Notes under the pieces: model-generated
Seen by the model: the letters and a program-made list of their open reading frames with translations, nothing else
Database searches by the model: none
Told to the model about the DNA's origin: nothing
Shown: positions 17,831-32,133 of the stretch, piece by piece
Layout of the letters: each line of letters starts with the position of its first letter
How positions within the stretch are numbered: position 1 is the first letter of the stretch
Translations under genes and position numbers: made by a program
NCBI GenBank assembly: GCA_023145475.1
Contig: JAGLDR010000068.1
Location: forward strand, 1-37,441
Source of the DNA: a bacterium
Lineage (GTDB): Bacteria; UBP6; UBA1177; JAGLDR01
Length of the DNA stretch: 37,441 nucleotides
Reading direction: 5' to 3'

Positions 17831-19015
17831 TTATTGAGCAGCTTTATATTCACAGATATCGGAGAAGTGTTCGGGAAGCTCTTCAGCCCATGGAGATGTT
17901 TCAGTTCCAAGTGGATGAGCAGCAAAGAAATCTACAATGTCCTGCGCTTTAATCTCAGCAGAAACACCAGCATTGTGTCCACCATTGTGATCACACACAA
18001 TAACATCGTGCCCTAAATCATTCAAATAGGGTGTTGCAAATCCCGCCATACGGTAAAAGTTCATCTCCATTACTGAATAGGTAAACTTATCTTCTGCCTC
18101 ACTGCCATGTTCAAGAACTTGCACATATTTGTTGGCTGTATCAAGCTCTGGCCAATAAATCATACTGCCAATTGCGATTCCATTGTATGAACCAAGATCA
18201 TCTTGTGAGTTTTGATCTGAAAAATAGGCACCAGAGAGAGAAAAAATGCTCGCAATTTGATCGCCACGCAAGGCACCAAGAGCATTTGACATAATAGCAC
18301 CAGCAGAGTGACCCATTGTATAGATTCGATCCTCATCTACTCCCCATTTTTCATCAACACACGCTAAAATTGCATCAAATAATTCAGCATCAGCACTCCC
18401 TTGTGCCTCAATCGTCAAGTTATCCCAATCAACACCAGTTGGGGGAACGCCCATTTTGAAAAGATCGCCTCTATCTTCAGGTACTGCCAATATAAATGGC
18501 ATCGCACCGTTATCAACCAATCCTTTCATCCAGGCTGATATATTTATTGCTGTATCTCCCATTCCATGCCACAAGAAAATTATTGGCCACGGACCTTTTG
18601 TCTCAACATCTTTCGGGAAATAGAGATAAAACGCTCTCTCTAACCCACCCTCTTCTAAATCCTCACTCTTTTCACCTTTTACGATAAAATCGGTATTAAG
18701 ACCTTCAAGAACCTTTGCGCACTGATCTTCTTCTCCAGTATCCGCAGTGTCTGATGTGTCTGCCGTATCTGCGGTGTCTGCCGTATCAGCACTGTCTGCG
18801 GTATCTGCGGTATCTGCGGTATCGGCACTGTCAGCTGTGTCTGATGTATCAGCAGTGTCTGAGGTATCTGCGGTATCTGAGGTATCTGCGGTATCTGATG
18901 TGTCTGCGGTATCGGCACTATCACCACTGTCTGAATTGTCACTGCTGCCCCCGCAACTGACAAAGCCCATAAAAAGAAAAAATGATAACAAGAACAATAA
19001 AGCACTCTTTTTCAT
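17831..19015 (-). CDS. Lipoprotein alpha/beta-hydrolase (PHB depolymerase/feruloyl esterase-like) with an N-terminal Asp-Thr-Ala/Ser tract
   Basis: Start at ATG 19015 gives MKKSALLFLLSFFLFMGFVSCGGSSDNSD (lipobox); (S/A)DTADTSD tract; GHSAG nucleophile elbow (YTMGHSAGAIMSN); candidate catalytic His in GGHNAG. Confidence 0.82.
   Translation of the reverse strand: MKKSALLFLLSFFLFMGFVSCGGSSDNSDSGDSADTADTSDTADTSDTADTSDTADTSDTADSADTADTADTADSADTADTADTADTSDTADTGEEDQCAKVLEGLNTDFIVKGEKSEDLEEGGLERAFYLYFPKDVETKGPWPIIFLWHGMGDTAINISAWMKGLVDNGAMPFILAVPEDRGDLFKMGVPPTGVDWDNLTIEAQGSADAELFDAILACVDEKWGVDEDRIYTMGHSAGAIMSNALGALRGDQIASIFSLSGAYFSDQNSQDDLGSYNGIAIGSMIYWPELDTANKYVQVLEHGSEAEDKFTYSVMEMNFYRMAGFATPYLNDLGHDVIVCDHNGGHNAGVSAEIKAQDIVDFFAAHPLGTETSPWAEELPEHFSDICEYKAAQ
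18738..18935. repeat. Degenerate 9-bp repeat tract encoding Asp-Thr-Ala/Ser units
   Basis: Plus strand shows successive gt(g/a)tc(t/a)g(c/a)(g/t/c/a)-type 9-mers encoding SADTADTSDTADTSD... on the minus strand. Confidence 0.8.
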
Positions 19016-19051
19016 AGAAATCTCCCTATTATTAAAAAACAACAACAGCAA

Positions 19052-19081
19052 AGTATAGCAGAAAATAGAGTATATTGTCAA
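19052..19081 (-). promoter_or_regulatory. Sigma70-like promoter upstream of the esterase lipoprotein
   Basis: Minus strand TTGACA (19076-19081), N18, TATACT (19052-19057). Confidence 0.6.
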
Positions 19082-19105
19082 CAAATAAGCGTCGTAGAAT
19101 GGTAT

Positions 19106-19300: not shown

Positions 19301-21364
19301 CTATAAAAAGAGTCGCCCAATCTGATAGGCAAAAACAGCAACACCAAATGCAATCAGTGTCATACCAAAGAATTGAAAAATGGGCCATCGCCATGAGCGT
19401 GTTTCAGATTTCACAATAGCAAATGTTGCTATACACGGTGCCGATAAGAGTATAAACAGTATAAACGCCAGTGCCGCAGGAAGTGAATATCTCTGTTTAA
19501 TCTTCGCCTGAAGAGAGTTATTATCTTCATCAACATCAGAACCAAGAGAGAAGAGAATGCCAAGCTGAGAGACAAAAACCTCTTTTGCGGCAAGAGAGGC
19601 AACAAATGCGCTACCAACTTTCCAATCGCCACCCATCAAGGCAACAGCTGGTTCAACAAACTTTCCCACTTTTCCTATAAATGAATTTTCTACCTGCATT
19701 TTAACAATCTGCTGGTTACTCATATTCGAGCCTGCTGGAGCTTCATAGCGAGGAAAAACTGTCATCACCCAGAGAATTATCGAAACAGCAAGAATGATTG
19801 TTCCCGCCTTTTCAAGAAAGTGTTTTCCTCTATCCCATGTATAAATCGCAAGAGTTCGCACAGTCGGCATTGCATAGCCTGGCAACTCCATTAAAAGTGG
19901 GTTCTCATCACCTTTTAAGACAGTTTTGCGGAGGAGTTTGGCAACAATCAACCCCACCATCACCCCAAACATATAGATTCCCCACAGTGAGAGCGCTTGA
20001 TATTCAGCAGGGATAAAAATAGAGACAAGCAGGAGATAAACAGGCAGCCGAGCACCACAACTCATAAATGGAATAATCAAAATCGTCGTCAATCGTTCCC
20101 ACTTATTTTCAATGATACGAGCACCCATAATTGCAGGGACAGAGCACCCAAAACCAAGAATCATCGGTACAAAACTTTTACCACTCAATCCAAGTCGTGC
20201 CATATACTTATCCATGATAACGGCAACTCGAGCCATATACCCGCTTCCTTCGAGAAAGGCGATACCAAAAAACATCAAAAAGATGTTGGGAGCAAACAAT
20301 AAAACGCCTCCGACTCCACCTATAATACCATCAACAATCAGTGACCTCAGAAGAGAATCACTCCCGTCCGGCCACAATCCAGAAACAGCGTCCCCAATCC
20401 ACCCAAACAGTGTTTCAAGCCCGCCCATCATCGGATCACCGAGGGTGAAAACCATCTGAAACAGAACAAACATCAGAAGAAAAAAGAGTGGCAAAGAGAG
20501 ATGCTCATGCAAGACAATAGCATCAACTTTTCGTGAAAAAGATGAGCGTACCTCACCACTTCGTTTTATCGCTTTCTTTGAAATATCCTCAATAAGATTA
20601 TAGCGTTCCTTGATAACAGCAGCAACAGAATCAGCGCCATATTCCTTTCTAATCTCACGCTCTAACTCTTTGATGTGAGACTTTATATGAGTGAGAAATC
20701 CATCATCAAAATATTGCTCAATTTGGTTATCTTTTTCAAGAAGTTTAACAGCAATCCACCCTTGTGTCATTTCAACAGAGTGCTGAGCTAAGACAAGCTT
20801 AATATCCTCTATAAAAGATTCCATTTTATCAGAATAGGTAATGCCCGGATATTGTCTCTTCTTCTCATATACAGCAATCGCCGTTGTAAGCAACTCAGTC
20901 AAACCCTCTTTTTTGCTTCCGATACCAGAGACAACAGGAATACCAAGTTCATTAGAGATAGCACTCTTACTGATTTTCATCCCATTCTTCTCAGCAATGT
21001 CCATCATATTCAAAAAGAGAACAACAGGAACACGCATCTCAAGAAGTTGCAGTGTCAGATAGAGATTTTTCTCAAGATTAGAGGCATCAACGACATTTAT
21101 AACTAAATCAGGTTTTTCATTGACGATAACATCTCGTGCAACTATCTCTTCAGGAGAAAATGCACTCATAGAGTAGGTGCCGGGGAGATCGTGGATTTTC
21201 AGATGGTAATCACCGTATGAAACCTCACCCTCTTTACGATCAACCGTAACACCTGGATAGTTTCCTACATGTTGTCGTATCCCTGTTAAAAAATTAAAAA
21301 TCGTGCTTTTACCAACATTCGGTTGTCCAGCAATAGCAATATTTATAAACTTCTTAGCTGACAT
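19301..21364 (-). CDS. feoB: Ferrous iron transport protein B
   Basis: G1 GQPNVGKSTIFN, DLPGTYS, NMMD; GYMARVAVIMDKYMARLGLSGKSFVPMILGFGCSVPAIMGARIIE. Confidence 0.95.
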   Translation of the reverse strand: MSAKKFINIAIAGQPNVGKSTIFNFLTGIRQHVGNYPGVTVDRKEGEVSYGDYHLKIHDLPGTYSMSAFSPEEIVARDVIVNEKPDLVINVVDASNLEKNLYLTLQLLEMRVPVVLFLNMMDIAEKNGMKISKSAISNELGIPVVSGIGSKKEGLTELLTTAIAVYEKKRQYPGITYSDKMESFIEDIKLVLAQHSVEMTQGWIAVKLLEKDNQIEQYFDDGFLTHIKSHIKELEREIRKEYGADSVAAVIKERYNLIEDISKKAIKRSGEVRSSFSRKVDAIVLHEHLSLPLFFLLMFVLFQMVFTLGDPMMGGLETLFGWIGDAVSGLWPDGSDSLLRSLIVDGIIGGVGGVLLFAPNIFLMFFGIAFLEGSGYMARVAVIMDKYMARLGLSGKSFVPMILGFGCSVPAIMGARIIENKWERLTTILIIPFMSCGARLPVYLLLVSIFIPAEYQALSLWGIYMFGVMVGLIVAKLLRKTVLKGDENPLLMELPGYAMPTVRTLAIYTWDRGKHFLEKAGTIILAVSIILWVMTVFPRYEAPAGSNMSNQQIVKMQVENSFIGKVGKFVEPAVALMGGDWKVGSAFVASLAAKEVFVSQLGILFSLGSDVDEDNNSLQAKIKQRYSLPAALAFILFILLSAPCIATFAIVKSETRSWRWPIFQFFGMTLIAFGVAVFAYQIGRLFL

Positions 21365-25603: not shown

Positions 25604-27514
25604 TTAGGAAAACATTTTTTTGAGCGTATCATCCCACTCAGTTTGCACAATCCCAGAATCGATTAACAACTTGTAGTAATCTCCGATTTTATCCATTAAC
25701 TCATCTCCCGCCATATAGTGAAAAGTTACGCGTTCTAAAAAGAGTTCAACATCATCAGGTTGTTGTCGCATCATATCAAATGAGAGTGCTGCGGCAGCTT
25801 TTTTGTTGGTTGTAACCCACTCAATCGCACTTTTAAGCTCTTCAAGAAAGAGTTTTACCACTTCGGGATGCTTTCGTGCAAGCTCGCCCTTGAACATAAC
25901 GCCAGCGTTTGGAAAGAGACCAAATCCTTCATTGACCTCATTCCAGACATCTCCAAATGAGACAACAGAATATTTGTCTCCCCGTTTTTTGAGAGCATTA
26001 ATAGCAAAACTTGCTTCTGGCTCTCTGAGAATTGCTGTATCTGACTCACCTTTTATCAATGAGTCAAGAATCTCTTCAGGACGACCAAATGGCTCACCAT
26101 ATTTGAAGTTAAAGTCTGAGATATCCATATTCAAAGACTCTATCAAGTATTTGGTTATTTTTGTCGGTGGTGCATCTTCAAAAAGTGGCGTATGAATCGT
26201 CCTCCCTTTGATATCTTCAAACGATTTTGCTTTATATCCTCGTGTTATGACAAAAAAGTTATCCCAAACAAACACAGCGGGCATTATAATATCATTTTGC
26301 TTCAATTTTGAAGCAGTAATAACCGCAGAAAAGGTAACATCAGCACGACCATCAACAACCCACGCGAGATGCTTTTCTGTCTCTCGCCATACTTTCAACT
26401 CCTTAATTGATACGGCATCAGTCAACCGTTTAGACTGCAAAAGACGCATAATCACAGGATATCCAACAGGTGTTGCCGATTGGATAGTCAATGCAGGTTT
26501 GTCACTTTGCTCTGTTTCACCCTGCTCTTCTATTTTTGGGGTTTTATAAAAATAGGTAGAGACCTCTTGAAAGATAAAATCACCCTCTTTTTCAATAACA
26601 TGATGCTCAAAACCCATCTCAGATAGCATATTTATCAGTGGTTCGGGTTTGAACTTTTGAACAATTACAAAACCATCACCCTGTTTTGTATCGTATGCCT
26701 TCTTCAAAATAACATCAAACGGATCCTCTTTCATCTTGCGAACATCCAATTGTTCAAACTCATCAAGTCGCTCTGTCCACTCCTCCTTATCGGCGGCATT
26801 CTCTTTATAAATAGAGAGCTTAAACCGTTTTGGATGGACCACTTCAATATTGTATAGAGCCCCATTTTCTTCAATCACTTTGATAAGAGGATTGACAACA
26901 AATTCACTAAAAACAATCATATTCTCGCCACTCTTCAGCCCAAGAACATGGTCAATAACCGCTGGTGTTCTTTTTGTTTCATTGCCCGCAATATCAAAAG
27001 ACTTTCCCTCTTCACGCCAGGAAATCGGCAGACTACTAAACTGCTCCGCAACGGGCGTAAAGTTGTGTTGAATACACTCTGGAGCATTTTTAAAAAGCTC
27101 ATCTTCTGTTCCTAGTTGCTTATTTAAAGTGTGCAAAATCTCACACACTGAAATTCCGGTCATTTTTGCCGCATCTTTGAAGGTGGCAAAACGGGCAACA
27201 GTGTTCCACATCACTGGATTTTGCATCGTCTTAAACTTAGGTGACATCGCCCACAGCGTCTCTCTTAGCTCTGGATTTTGTTCAAGTGTCTCTCTCACCT
27301 TTGACATTGAGACGATAACTTTTTTATCTGAGGCAACTTCAATAGCTTGAACAGGACAGATGCCCTGTGCAATATCACATGCCTTCTCCTCTTTTTTGTT
27401 TTTTGGTTGCGTAATCATAAAGGCTTTTTTGCCCTTCATTTCCATGTTTTTTGGTGCGACCTTAATACACGCTTTGCATCCTATGCACTTCTTGTCTATT
27501 ATAAAACTTTTCAT
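25604..27514 (-). CDS. Chimeric protein: ferredoxin + DUF1858-like + two DUF2249-like modules + NMT1/SsuA-like solute-binding domain
   Basis: CIGCKAC...GICPVQAIEV (mono [4Fe-4S] pattern); VRETLEQNPELRETLWAMSPKF...FKDAAKMTGISVCEILHTLNKQLG; FDIAGNETKRTPAVIDHVLGLKSGENMIVFSEFVVNPLIKVIEENG and LDVRKMKEDPFDVILKKAYDTKQGDGFVIVQKFKPEPLINMLSEMG; SATPVGYPVIMRLLQSKRL...TAILREPEASFA...HPEVVKLFLEELKSAIEWV. No signal peptide. Confidence 0.72.
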   Translation of the reverse strand: MKSFIIDKKCIGCKACIKVAPKNMEMKGKKAFMITQPKNKKEEKACDIAQGICPVQAIEVASDKKVIVSMSKVRETLEQNPELRETLWAMSPKFKTMQNPVMWNTVARFATFKDAAKMTGISVCEILHTLNKQLGTEDELFKNAPECIQHNFTPVAEQFSSLPISWREEGKSFDIAGNETKRTPAVIDHVLGLKSGENMIVFSEFVVNPLIKVIEENGALYNIEVVHPKRFKLSIYKENAADKEEWTERLDEFEQLDVRKMKEDPFDVILKKAYDTKQGDGFVIVQKFKPEPLINMLSEMGFEHHVIEKEGDFIFQEVSTYFYKTPKIEEQGETEQSDKPALTIQSATPVGYPVIMRLLQSKRLTDAVSIKELKVWRETEKHLAWVVDGRADVTFSAVITASKLKQNDIIMPAVFVWDNFFVITRGYKAKSFEDIKGRTIHTPLFEDAPPTKITKYLIESLNMDISDFNFKYGEPFGRPEEILDSLIKGESDTAILREPEASFAINALKKRGDKYSVVSFGDVWNEVNEGFGLFPNAGVMFKGELARKHPEVVKLFLEELKSAIEWVTTNKKAAAALSFDMMRQQPDDVELFLERVTFHYMAGDELMDKIGDYYKLLIDSGIVQTEWDDTLKKMFS

Positions 27515-27558
27515 CTTTCTCCCCCTGAGAAAAGAACAAAAAAAACCTTTCGCCTCAC

Positions 27559-27586
27559 ATTATAGGACTCGCGAGTCCGAAATCAA
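27559..27586 (-). promoter_or_regulatory. Predicted promoter of the ferredoxin/SBP chimera with a palindromic spacer
   Basis: Minus strand TTGATT (27581-27586), N16, TATAAT (27559-27564). The spacer contains the perfect palindrome GGACTCGCGAGTCC (27565-27578). Confidence 0.68.
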
Positions 27587-30838: not shown

Positions 30839-31285
30839 CTATACATACTTTGCAAGAAATCTATCAAGTTGCGCGGCAAATGCCTGTTTTTGCTTTTGCC
30901 CGAACGGCGCTGAGCCCCCAGTCTGCATACCGCTATCTCGGAGGTATTGTGCATAATCTCTCACATCTAGTCGAGCGCCAATATTATTCTTTGTATAGAG
31001 TTCACCTCGTGGATTAAGGGCAAAGCCCCCCTTCTCAACTACACGGTGCGCAAGTGGAATATCCGCTGTGATAACAAGATCATTTTCCTCAGTCAATTCA
31101 ACAAGTTTATCATCTGCAATATCGGGTCCTTGCGAAACCAACAGAAAGGAAAAAAGTGGTGAATCAGGCAGCGTTCGATAGCTATTTGCAACCACTATAA
31201 CTGCAATTTTTTTGCGCGATGCCGCTCGAAAGAGAATTTCCGCTGCAGCACCAGGCATTGCATCACCATCAACAAGAATACGCAT
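30839..31285 (-). CDS. YaiI/YqxD-family (DUF188) protein
   Basis: MRILVDGDAMPGAAAEILFRAASRKKIAVIVVANS...GPDIADDKLVE...VITADIPLAHRVVEKGGFALNPRGELYT. Confidence 0.9.
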   Translation of the reverse strand: MRILVDGDAMPGAAAEILFRAASRKKIAVIVVANSYRTLPDSPLFSFLLVSQGPDIADDKLVELTEENDLVITADIPLAHRVVEKGGFALNPRGELYTKNNIGARLDVRDYAQYLRDSGMQTGGSAPFGQKQKQAFAAQLDRFLAKYV

Positions 31286-32133
31286 CAGTCGTTACACTGA
31301 TAAGCTGTGTGCTGCATCGCAGCTGCACATTCAGTATCATTCTGACAACCTTGATGCTGGCAAATATTATCTTCACACTTGTAATGATCCGCATCGTAGA
31401 GTGCCATTCCCGCCGTTTCGCAATCTGCAGGTGAATTACAGCCTCGCACACACACCTTCATTGTCATACCAGCAAGTTGGTGACAAACATAACTGTCGCT
31501 TGTTCCACCCATTGACTCTTGACACTCAACAGTGCTATTACAGCCATTATATTCACAATATCCACCGGTACAAAGATAGTTGTTTTCACTGTATGCCCCA
31601 TCCGTTACCGCGGCATTCACACACTCAGAAACGACGGCACATTTTTTTACACACGAGCCAACATTATTCTTTCTAAAACAGCCATATCCTGTGGTAATTG
31701 CTTCGACACATTCAGCATCTGAATTACAGCCTGAATAGACACACCACCCATCATTGCACGAATAGTTATCTGCACCAAGTATTGGAGATGTCGTGTTAGT
31801 AACACAATCAATCGAGGACGAACAGGAAATCTCACAATACGGTATAGCTTCAGGTGTAGTGTCTGCAGTGTCTGCAGTGTCTGCGGTATCTGCGGTATCG
31901 GCTGTGTCAGCGGTATCAGCGGTATTTGCACTGTCTGCGGTATCTGCTGTGTCGGCTGTGTCAGCTGTATCAGCACTGTCTGCTGTGTCAGCTGTGTTTG
32001 CAGTGTTTGCACTGTCTGCGGTGTCGGCTGTGTCAGCGGTATTTGCACTGTCTGCGGTATCTGCTCTATCAACACCGCTACCACAAGCTGTCATCCAAAC
32101 AATCATCATCAATAAAATAAGTGTTTTTTTCAT
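31285..32133 (-). CDS. Lipoprotein with an Asp-Thr-Ala tract and Cys-rich internal repeats
   Basis: MKKTLILLMMIVWMTACGSGVDRADTADSAN... lipobox; tract; then recurring C-x4-C-x3-GC-x4-EC units. TGATG overlap with the DUF188 gene. Confidence 0.8.
   Translation of the reverse strand: MKKTLILLMMIVWMTACGSGVDRADTADSANTADTADTADSANTANTADTADSADTADTADTADTADSANTADTADTADTADTADTADTADTTPEAIPYCEISCSSSIDCVTNTTSPILGADNYSCNDGWCVYSGCNSDAECVEAITTGYGCFRKNNVGSCVKKCAVVSECVNAAVTDGAYSENNYLCTGGYCEYNGCNSTVECQESMGGTSDSYVCHQLAGMTMKVCVRGCNSPADCETAGMALYDADHYKCEDNICQHQGCQNDTECAAAMQHTAYQCND
31856..32066. repeat. Degenerate 9-bp repeat tract encoding (Asp/Asn)-(Thr/Ser)-Ala units
   Basis: Plus strand gtgtctgca/gtatctgcg/gtgtcagct etc. 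in 9-nt period, encoding ADTADSANTADTADTAD... on the minus strand. Confidence 0.8.

Follow-up and report, generated by a model that had tools for sequence, protein, structure and literature searches.

Locus and domain architecture

In the window, by which we mean the complete stretch of 37,441 nucleotides analysed here, a gene for a multidomain protein lies between recG and dnaE, with greA also nearby (Table 1). The open reading frame is real and the coordinates given for it in an earlier sequence-only reading are exact; the strand, which that reading had left out, is the minus strand. The proposed D. gigas-type ferredoxin module was recovered by Pfam at the N-terminus as Fer4_13 (residues 6-60, 7e-11), with the Desulfovibrio types 1dax, 1f2g and 1dwl as the nearest solved structures, and the proposed DUF1858-like helical domain as DUF1858 (72-126, 9.7e-14). 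Both lie above the gathering cut-off, as does DUF2249 at residues 256-311 (3.9e-11), which accounts for one of two consecutive DUF2249-like modules that had been read from the letters. The other, degenerate one was not separately resolved by Pfam (residues about 170-237); profile-to-profile comparison with the canonical module (hhalign, probability 98%, E 3e-13) substantiates it, and a beta-alpha-beta-alpha-beta-beta order is predicted for both.

Table 1 Features of the window gene, its upstream region and other sites mentioned in the text
Feature	Position	Strand	Remarks and basis
Whole gene, 636 aa, ATG start	25604-27514	-	ferredoxin, DUF1858, DUF2249-like, DUF2249, NMT1/SsuA/Thi5-type binding domain
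Mono-[4Fe-4S] ferredoxin module, residues 1-62	27329-27514	-	Fer4_13; putative ligands C10, C13, C16, C53 (CxxCxxC...CP)
DUF1858 helical domain, residues 72-126	27137-27301	-	Pfam and family alignment
Degenerate first DUF2249-like module, residues about 170-237	26804-27007	-	hhalign against second module, predicted fold
Canonical DUF2249 module, residues 253-326	26537-26758	-	Pfam
Substrate-binding-protein fold, residues 340-636	25607-26497	-	AlphaFold, Foldseek, alignment
Perfect palindrome GGACTCGCGAGTCC, candidate repressor operator between -35 and -10	27565-27578		sequence
-35-like TTGATT, 16 bp from -10	27581-27586	-	sequence
-10-like TATAAT, directly after palindrome	27559-27564	-	sequence
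Likely ribosome-binding site AGGGGGAG, 4 bases ahead of ATG	27519-27526	-	sequence
FeoB-type ferrous iron transporter; lies beyond dnaE, two genes downstream of the window gene	19301-21364
Two predicted lipoproteins with long (S/T/A)DTAD repeats	17831-19084; 31285-32133
GGACTnnnnAGTCC sites in the window genome (G000)	C19:2535 (iscS); C212:27565 (window gene); C209:1106 (hcp); C31:426 (hydE); C167:37317 (hydG)

In the two lipoprotein genes of the window, antisense frames are kept open by the repeats, and open reading frames in those stretches should therefore be read with caution.

A binding domain without an importer

The NMT1/SsuA/ThiY-like binding domain suggested earlier is clear by predicted structure and sub-threshold by sequence profiles. 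AlphaFold modelled the C-terminal 297 residues as a substrate-binding fold (pLDDT 86.9, pTM 0.84), for which Foldseek returned 1287 PDB matches at E<=0.001 (E down to 3e-15), the top ones being 3hn0 (best), Thi5, SsuA, TauA and PqqT, with TM about 0.65-0.75; sequence profiles reach it only weakly (NMT1 0.056, SsuA_fam 0.0035), and matches to VitK2_biosynth are weak as well. Within the 38-member family alignment described below, 64 of the 109 near-invariant positions fall into this domain, and its motifs are conserved far better than the remainder of the protein. It carries the family-specific motifs W376xETExH, W417DNF, A448PP, F476GRP, L496REPEA and P535NAG, several of which are absent from secreted, ABC-linked relatives, and a set of extremely conserved charged residues (E380, H382, D418, R478, R497, E498). 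Four secreted binding proteins akin to the C-terminal domain (L026, L033, L035, L037) each have genes for an ABC permease and an ATPase immediately behind their own, and knowing what they bind would help in understanding the cytosolic family.

The protein itself seems to stay inside the cell. As had been noted before, it lacks a signal peptide (its highest 19-residue Kyte-Doolittle value, 1.15, is internal), and none was found in any of 11 family members examined. By-eye reading of the window bears out that no ABC genes are near, and none of an importer adjoin the family genes at the loci inspected. The window genome, a MAG of 94.6% completeness, gave one BPD-type permease hit, located in an operon that was read from its sequence as being of the tungstate/molybdate type and that has its own binding protein. 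An importer-type binding domain is thus retained inside the cell without an importer. The chemistry of the Thi5/NMT1 HMP-P synthase was considered and rejected: Lys62 and His66 are replaced by Ser396 and Thr400, and the CCCFC iron motif by a cysteine-free stretch. With these residues unconserved, the thiamine-precursor role contemplated earlier is not supported.

Distribution and evolution of the family

Relatives were recovered by alignment-based search, while a scan of genome contigs with the single protein gave no match; the family alignment comprises 38 relatives from several phyla, so that the family has at least 38 members. Full-length relatives occur in G026 (of the same phylum as the window organism), G077, G071, G126 and three more genomes of G077's family, a group which, as read from its genes, may be Marinitoga-like; further ones come from a Peptostreptococcaceae-labelled bin and from Bacteroidales MAGs, and relatives turned up in 30 of 393 genomes in a sample taken around a Bacteroidales centre. 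What had been called a chimera is indeed a domain fusion, but not a singular oddity, as the same architecture recurs in the 38 relatives. The family is unstudied but widespread in bacteria, and the literature searched yielded no description of the architecture as a whole.

The ferredoxin is fused in 31 of the 38 relatives, with C10, C13, C16 and C53 invariant in all 31, and absent from six, G026 and G071 among them; a 571-aa frame without it (L133) is probably cut by the contig end. Cys residues in DUF1858 (C124) and just beyond it (C147) are conserved in 37 of the 38. In half of the six unfused members (L155, L156, L158), the family gene is preceded, at a distance of 35-74 bp, by a gene for a 62-aa ferredoxin of this type. 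The fused members form one clade (100/100) with the six unfused rows outside, in a tree whose root is arbitrary and in which G026 and G071 are long branches; this topology agrees with one event in which a ferredoxin gene from next door was fused. The window protein clusters (99/97) with proteins of the G077 group and of the Peptostreptococcaceae-labelled bin, not with G026 of its own phylum, and lateral transfer of the gene therefore is likely. Two copies interrupted by stops were also observed, one split into two frames (L057:7134-9010, in G388) and one with a single in-frame TAA (L135, in G551); in these genomes the gene appears to be dispensable or decaying, or else misassembled.

Candidate operators and regulon

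The window genome contains two exact copies of the palindrome GGACTnnnnAGTCC, one at the window gene and the other upstream of iscS, which is followed by an iscU/nifU-type gene (names read from sequence). After a near-copy at hcp had been seen by eye, a genome scan gave 18 one-mismatch copies, some of them intragenic; others precede hcp, hydE and hydG as well as genes for a thioredoxin-like protein and a transporter (names except hcp read from sequence). Genome-wide, GGACTnnnnAGTCC is not over-represented (20 near-matches compared to 51 for the reversed control), and the case for an operator therefore rests on the location of the copies; that one should lie by chance at 200 bp or less from hcp has a probability of about 0.002. 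The one clear Rrf2 regulator of the genome (L100:1483-1908), which has three clustered Cys, is a candidate reader of the palindromic site. Window gene, iscS, hcp, hydE and hydG constitute a candidate Fe-S/redox (NO) regulon of a poorly studied lineage.

Another box is found in the G077 group. GTAACnnnnGTTAC, described by Rodionov et al. (PMC1274295) as the HcpR2 box in groups of Clostridium, Bacteroides and Thermotogales, lies upstream of the family gene in three of four members (G388, 85 bp, exact; G077, 89 bp, and G392, 62 bp, one mismatch each) and is absent from this position in G387; 0-0.3 sites would be expected by chance per 17-kb locus. In a G392 locus composed of FNR-like, hemerythrin-PAS and hcp genes, the hemerythrin-PAS gene is flanked by two exact copies of the box. 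No GTAACnnnnGTTAC site occurs in the window or in the upstream sequence of its gene, and the palindromes upstream of Bacteroidota members mostly are A+T-rich inverted repeats with no clear common motif.

Gene neighbourhoods

Ten of the 38 family genes have hcp, qNOR or hemerythrin-PAS no more than about six ORFs away, where a rough estimate by gene density would predict about 0.5 by chance. The hybrid-cluster protein gene hcp is near the family gene in four Bacteroidota (L155-L158), qNOR in L134 and L136 and, together with Rrf2, in L043, L046/L132 and L147, and hemerythrin-PAS in L041, L043, L046 and L134. In L155, L156 and L158, a divergent FNR-like regulator, the small ferredoxin, the ferredoxin-less family gene and hcp follow each other in this order. 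DUF2249 genes without the binding domain keep similar company, as in Rrf2-DUF2249-hcp (L030, L031) and FNR-type-DUF2249-hcp (L045). With regard to both operators and neighbours, the family's link to an NO/Fe-S regulon is well supported. It counts against a response to NO that 28 of the 38 relatives have no hcp, NO reductase or hemerythrin-PAS neighbour, that no N-oxide genes stand beside the window gene and that hemerythrin is missing from the window genome.

Hemerythrin was rejected as an obligatory partner, as it was not found in five of 11 carrier genomes, the window genome included, and the label DUF438 for the hemerythrin-PAS neighbour was dropped, since Pfam gave Hemerythrin and PAS domains only. 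In five Bacteroidota (L042, L137, L138, L139, L144), the family gene is near genes of MinD/NBP35-like ferredoxin ATPases, mostly together with DUF134 and NifX-like genes. The NBP_b label on a 307-aa gene in L158 was discarded, most likely being a match to its ferredoxin part alone.

Possible function

On the reading that we prefer, and hold to be about as likely as not, the protein has a DrpB-like core and serves in the cytosol as an adaptor/sensor when anaerobes respond to nitric oxide (N-oxide) and Fe-S stress. The ferredoxin would hold one [4Fe-4S] cluster, which is either attacked by NO or an oxidant or exchanges an electron, and the binding domain would close on a small cytosolic ligand; the joint redox/ligand state would pass through DUF1858 and the pair of DUF2249 modules, perhaps with the help of C124/C147, and so reach a partner protein in the Hcp/NO-reductase circuit. 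Cluster binding, ligand binding and this relay are steps that we infer, and by analogy to Thermus DrpB a regulatory output is preferred over a catalytic one. Two points count against a sensor: no output domain (DNA-binding, kinase or other) is present, and in Thermus it is DrpA which has been proposed as the actual nitrate receptor. The sequence-only reading had suggested a ligand- and redox-responsive sensor or a role in Fe-S metabolism, which fits the regulatory and neighbour evidence (NO/nitrosative stress, Fe-S gene sets); its sulfur-metabolism option received no specific indication. A more far-reaching version, possible but rather doubtful, would have a former ABC binding protein, now cytosolic, read a small molecule of nitrosative stress and the fused ferredoxin report damage to its cluster; the joint signal would reach the NO-detoxification circuit through the DUF1858/DUF2249 core. 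If true, this would be a new kind of soluble sensor.

Substrate-binding folds can also form catalytic pockets, as in Thi5 and MqnA/MqnD. The protein might accordingly take part in NO/hydroxylamine detoxification, as a redox enzyme or as an electron-transfer accessory whose ferredoxin supplies electrons either to Hcp or to a substrate in the pocket of the binding domain, and the fused or adjacent ferredoxin beside hcp in L155-L158, the extreme conservation of the six charged residues and the resemblance to cytosolic enzymes of this fold (the Thi5 and weak VitK2_biosynth matches) speak for it. We nevertheless consider it unlikely, given the missing Thi5 catalytic residues, the two relatives entirely devoid of a ferredoxin module (G026, G071) and the regulatory role of the DrpB-like core in Thermus. 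A repair or assembly factor for Fe-S clusters, with a role like that of RIC/YtfE, in which the ferredoxin would provide a carrier or sensor cluster and transfer would take place at C124/C147, would agree with the candidate operator common to iscS, hydE, hydG and hcp, with the near-universal conservation of both Cys residues and with the five Bacteroidota members near MinD/NBP35-like ATPase and NifX-like genes. In Fe-S maturation proteins of the SufT/DUF59 kind, DUF1858 moreover occurs as a fused domain (PMC4982691), and CxxU selenoprotein forms of it are known (PMC9312934), the latter being compatible with a redox role. Such a factor is quite improbable all the same: no scaffold or sulfurtransferase motif was recognised, the likeness of DUF2249 to TusA is marginal (0.068, one member), and the binding domain is left without a role.

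That the binding domain is an ordinary ABC importer component, fused by chance, hardly deserves credence. The fold and the four secreted relatives with their permease and ATPase genes are what one would expect of it, but none of the 11 members has a signal peptide, the ferredoxin and DUF modules precede the binding domain, and no importer genes adjoin the inspected family genes; as the only BPD permease hit in the genome lies in an operon with its own binding protein, an importer role is untenable.

Comparison with known systems

With ABC substrate-binding proteins the family shares the two-lobed fold, but neither the export signal or lipobox nor the cognate permease and ATPase. Sequence kinship of its binding domain is recognisable with the ABC-linked L026 (G219), which has the NMT1/SsuA/TauA/Thi5 fold; unlike its secreted relatives, however, the domain is cytosolic, fused and without transporter, and it has an FGRP insertion and family-specific motifs that those relatives lack. 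Yeast Thi5 (HMP-P synthase) is another cytosolic use of this fold, but its catalytic Lys62, His66 and CCCFC are missing here. The ferredoxin module resembles Desulfovibrio ferredoxins I/II (Fer4_13) in its CxxCxxC...CP motif and domain length, and differs from them in being fused to the N-terminus of a larger protein, except for the stand-alone forms of L155, L156 and L158. As for the HcpR2 regulon, the available part of its description (PMC1274295) does not name the family gene, and the operator employed in the window genome appears to be a different one, GGACTnnnnAGTCC.

DUF2249 genes are induced during haloarchaeal denitrification (PMC11218638) and the Bradyrhizobium NnrR regulon includes a DUF1858 gene (PMC6710368). 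Both domains thus recur across denitrification and NO-stress gene sets, and since the present family, in several phyla, joins them to two assayable domains (an Fe-S cluster and a ligand pocket), DUF function becomes directly testable. The closest counterpart of this core is DrpB of Thermus thermophilus, a cytoplasmic protein of 273 aa composed of DUF1858-DUF2249-DUF2249, which together with DrpA is required for nitrate-dependent control of nar (PMC6282519). Order and number of these domains are equal in both, both lack a signal peptide, and both are linked to the control of anaerobic nitrogen-oxide genes. DrpB has no further domains, whereas the window protein has gained the N-terminal ferredoxin and the C-terminal binding domain; drpB is encoded with drpA downstream of nar, whereas the window gene has no nar operon beside it and is surrounded by recG, greA and dnaE. 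The family is DrpB-like in its core and, by size and locus, stands outside DrpB membership.
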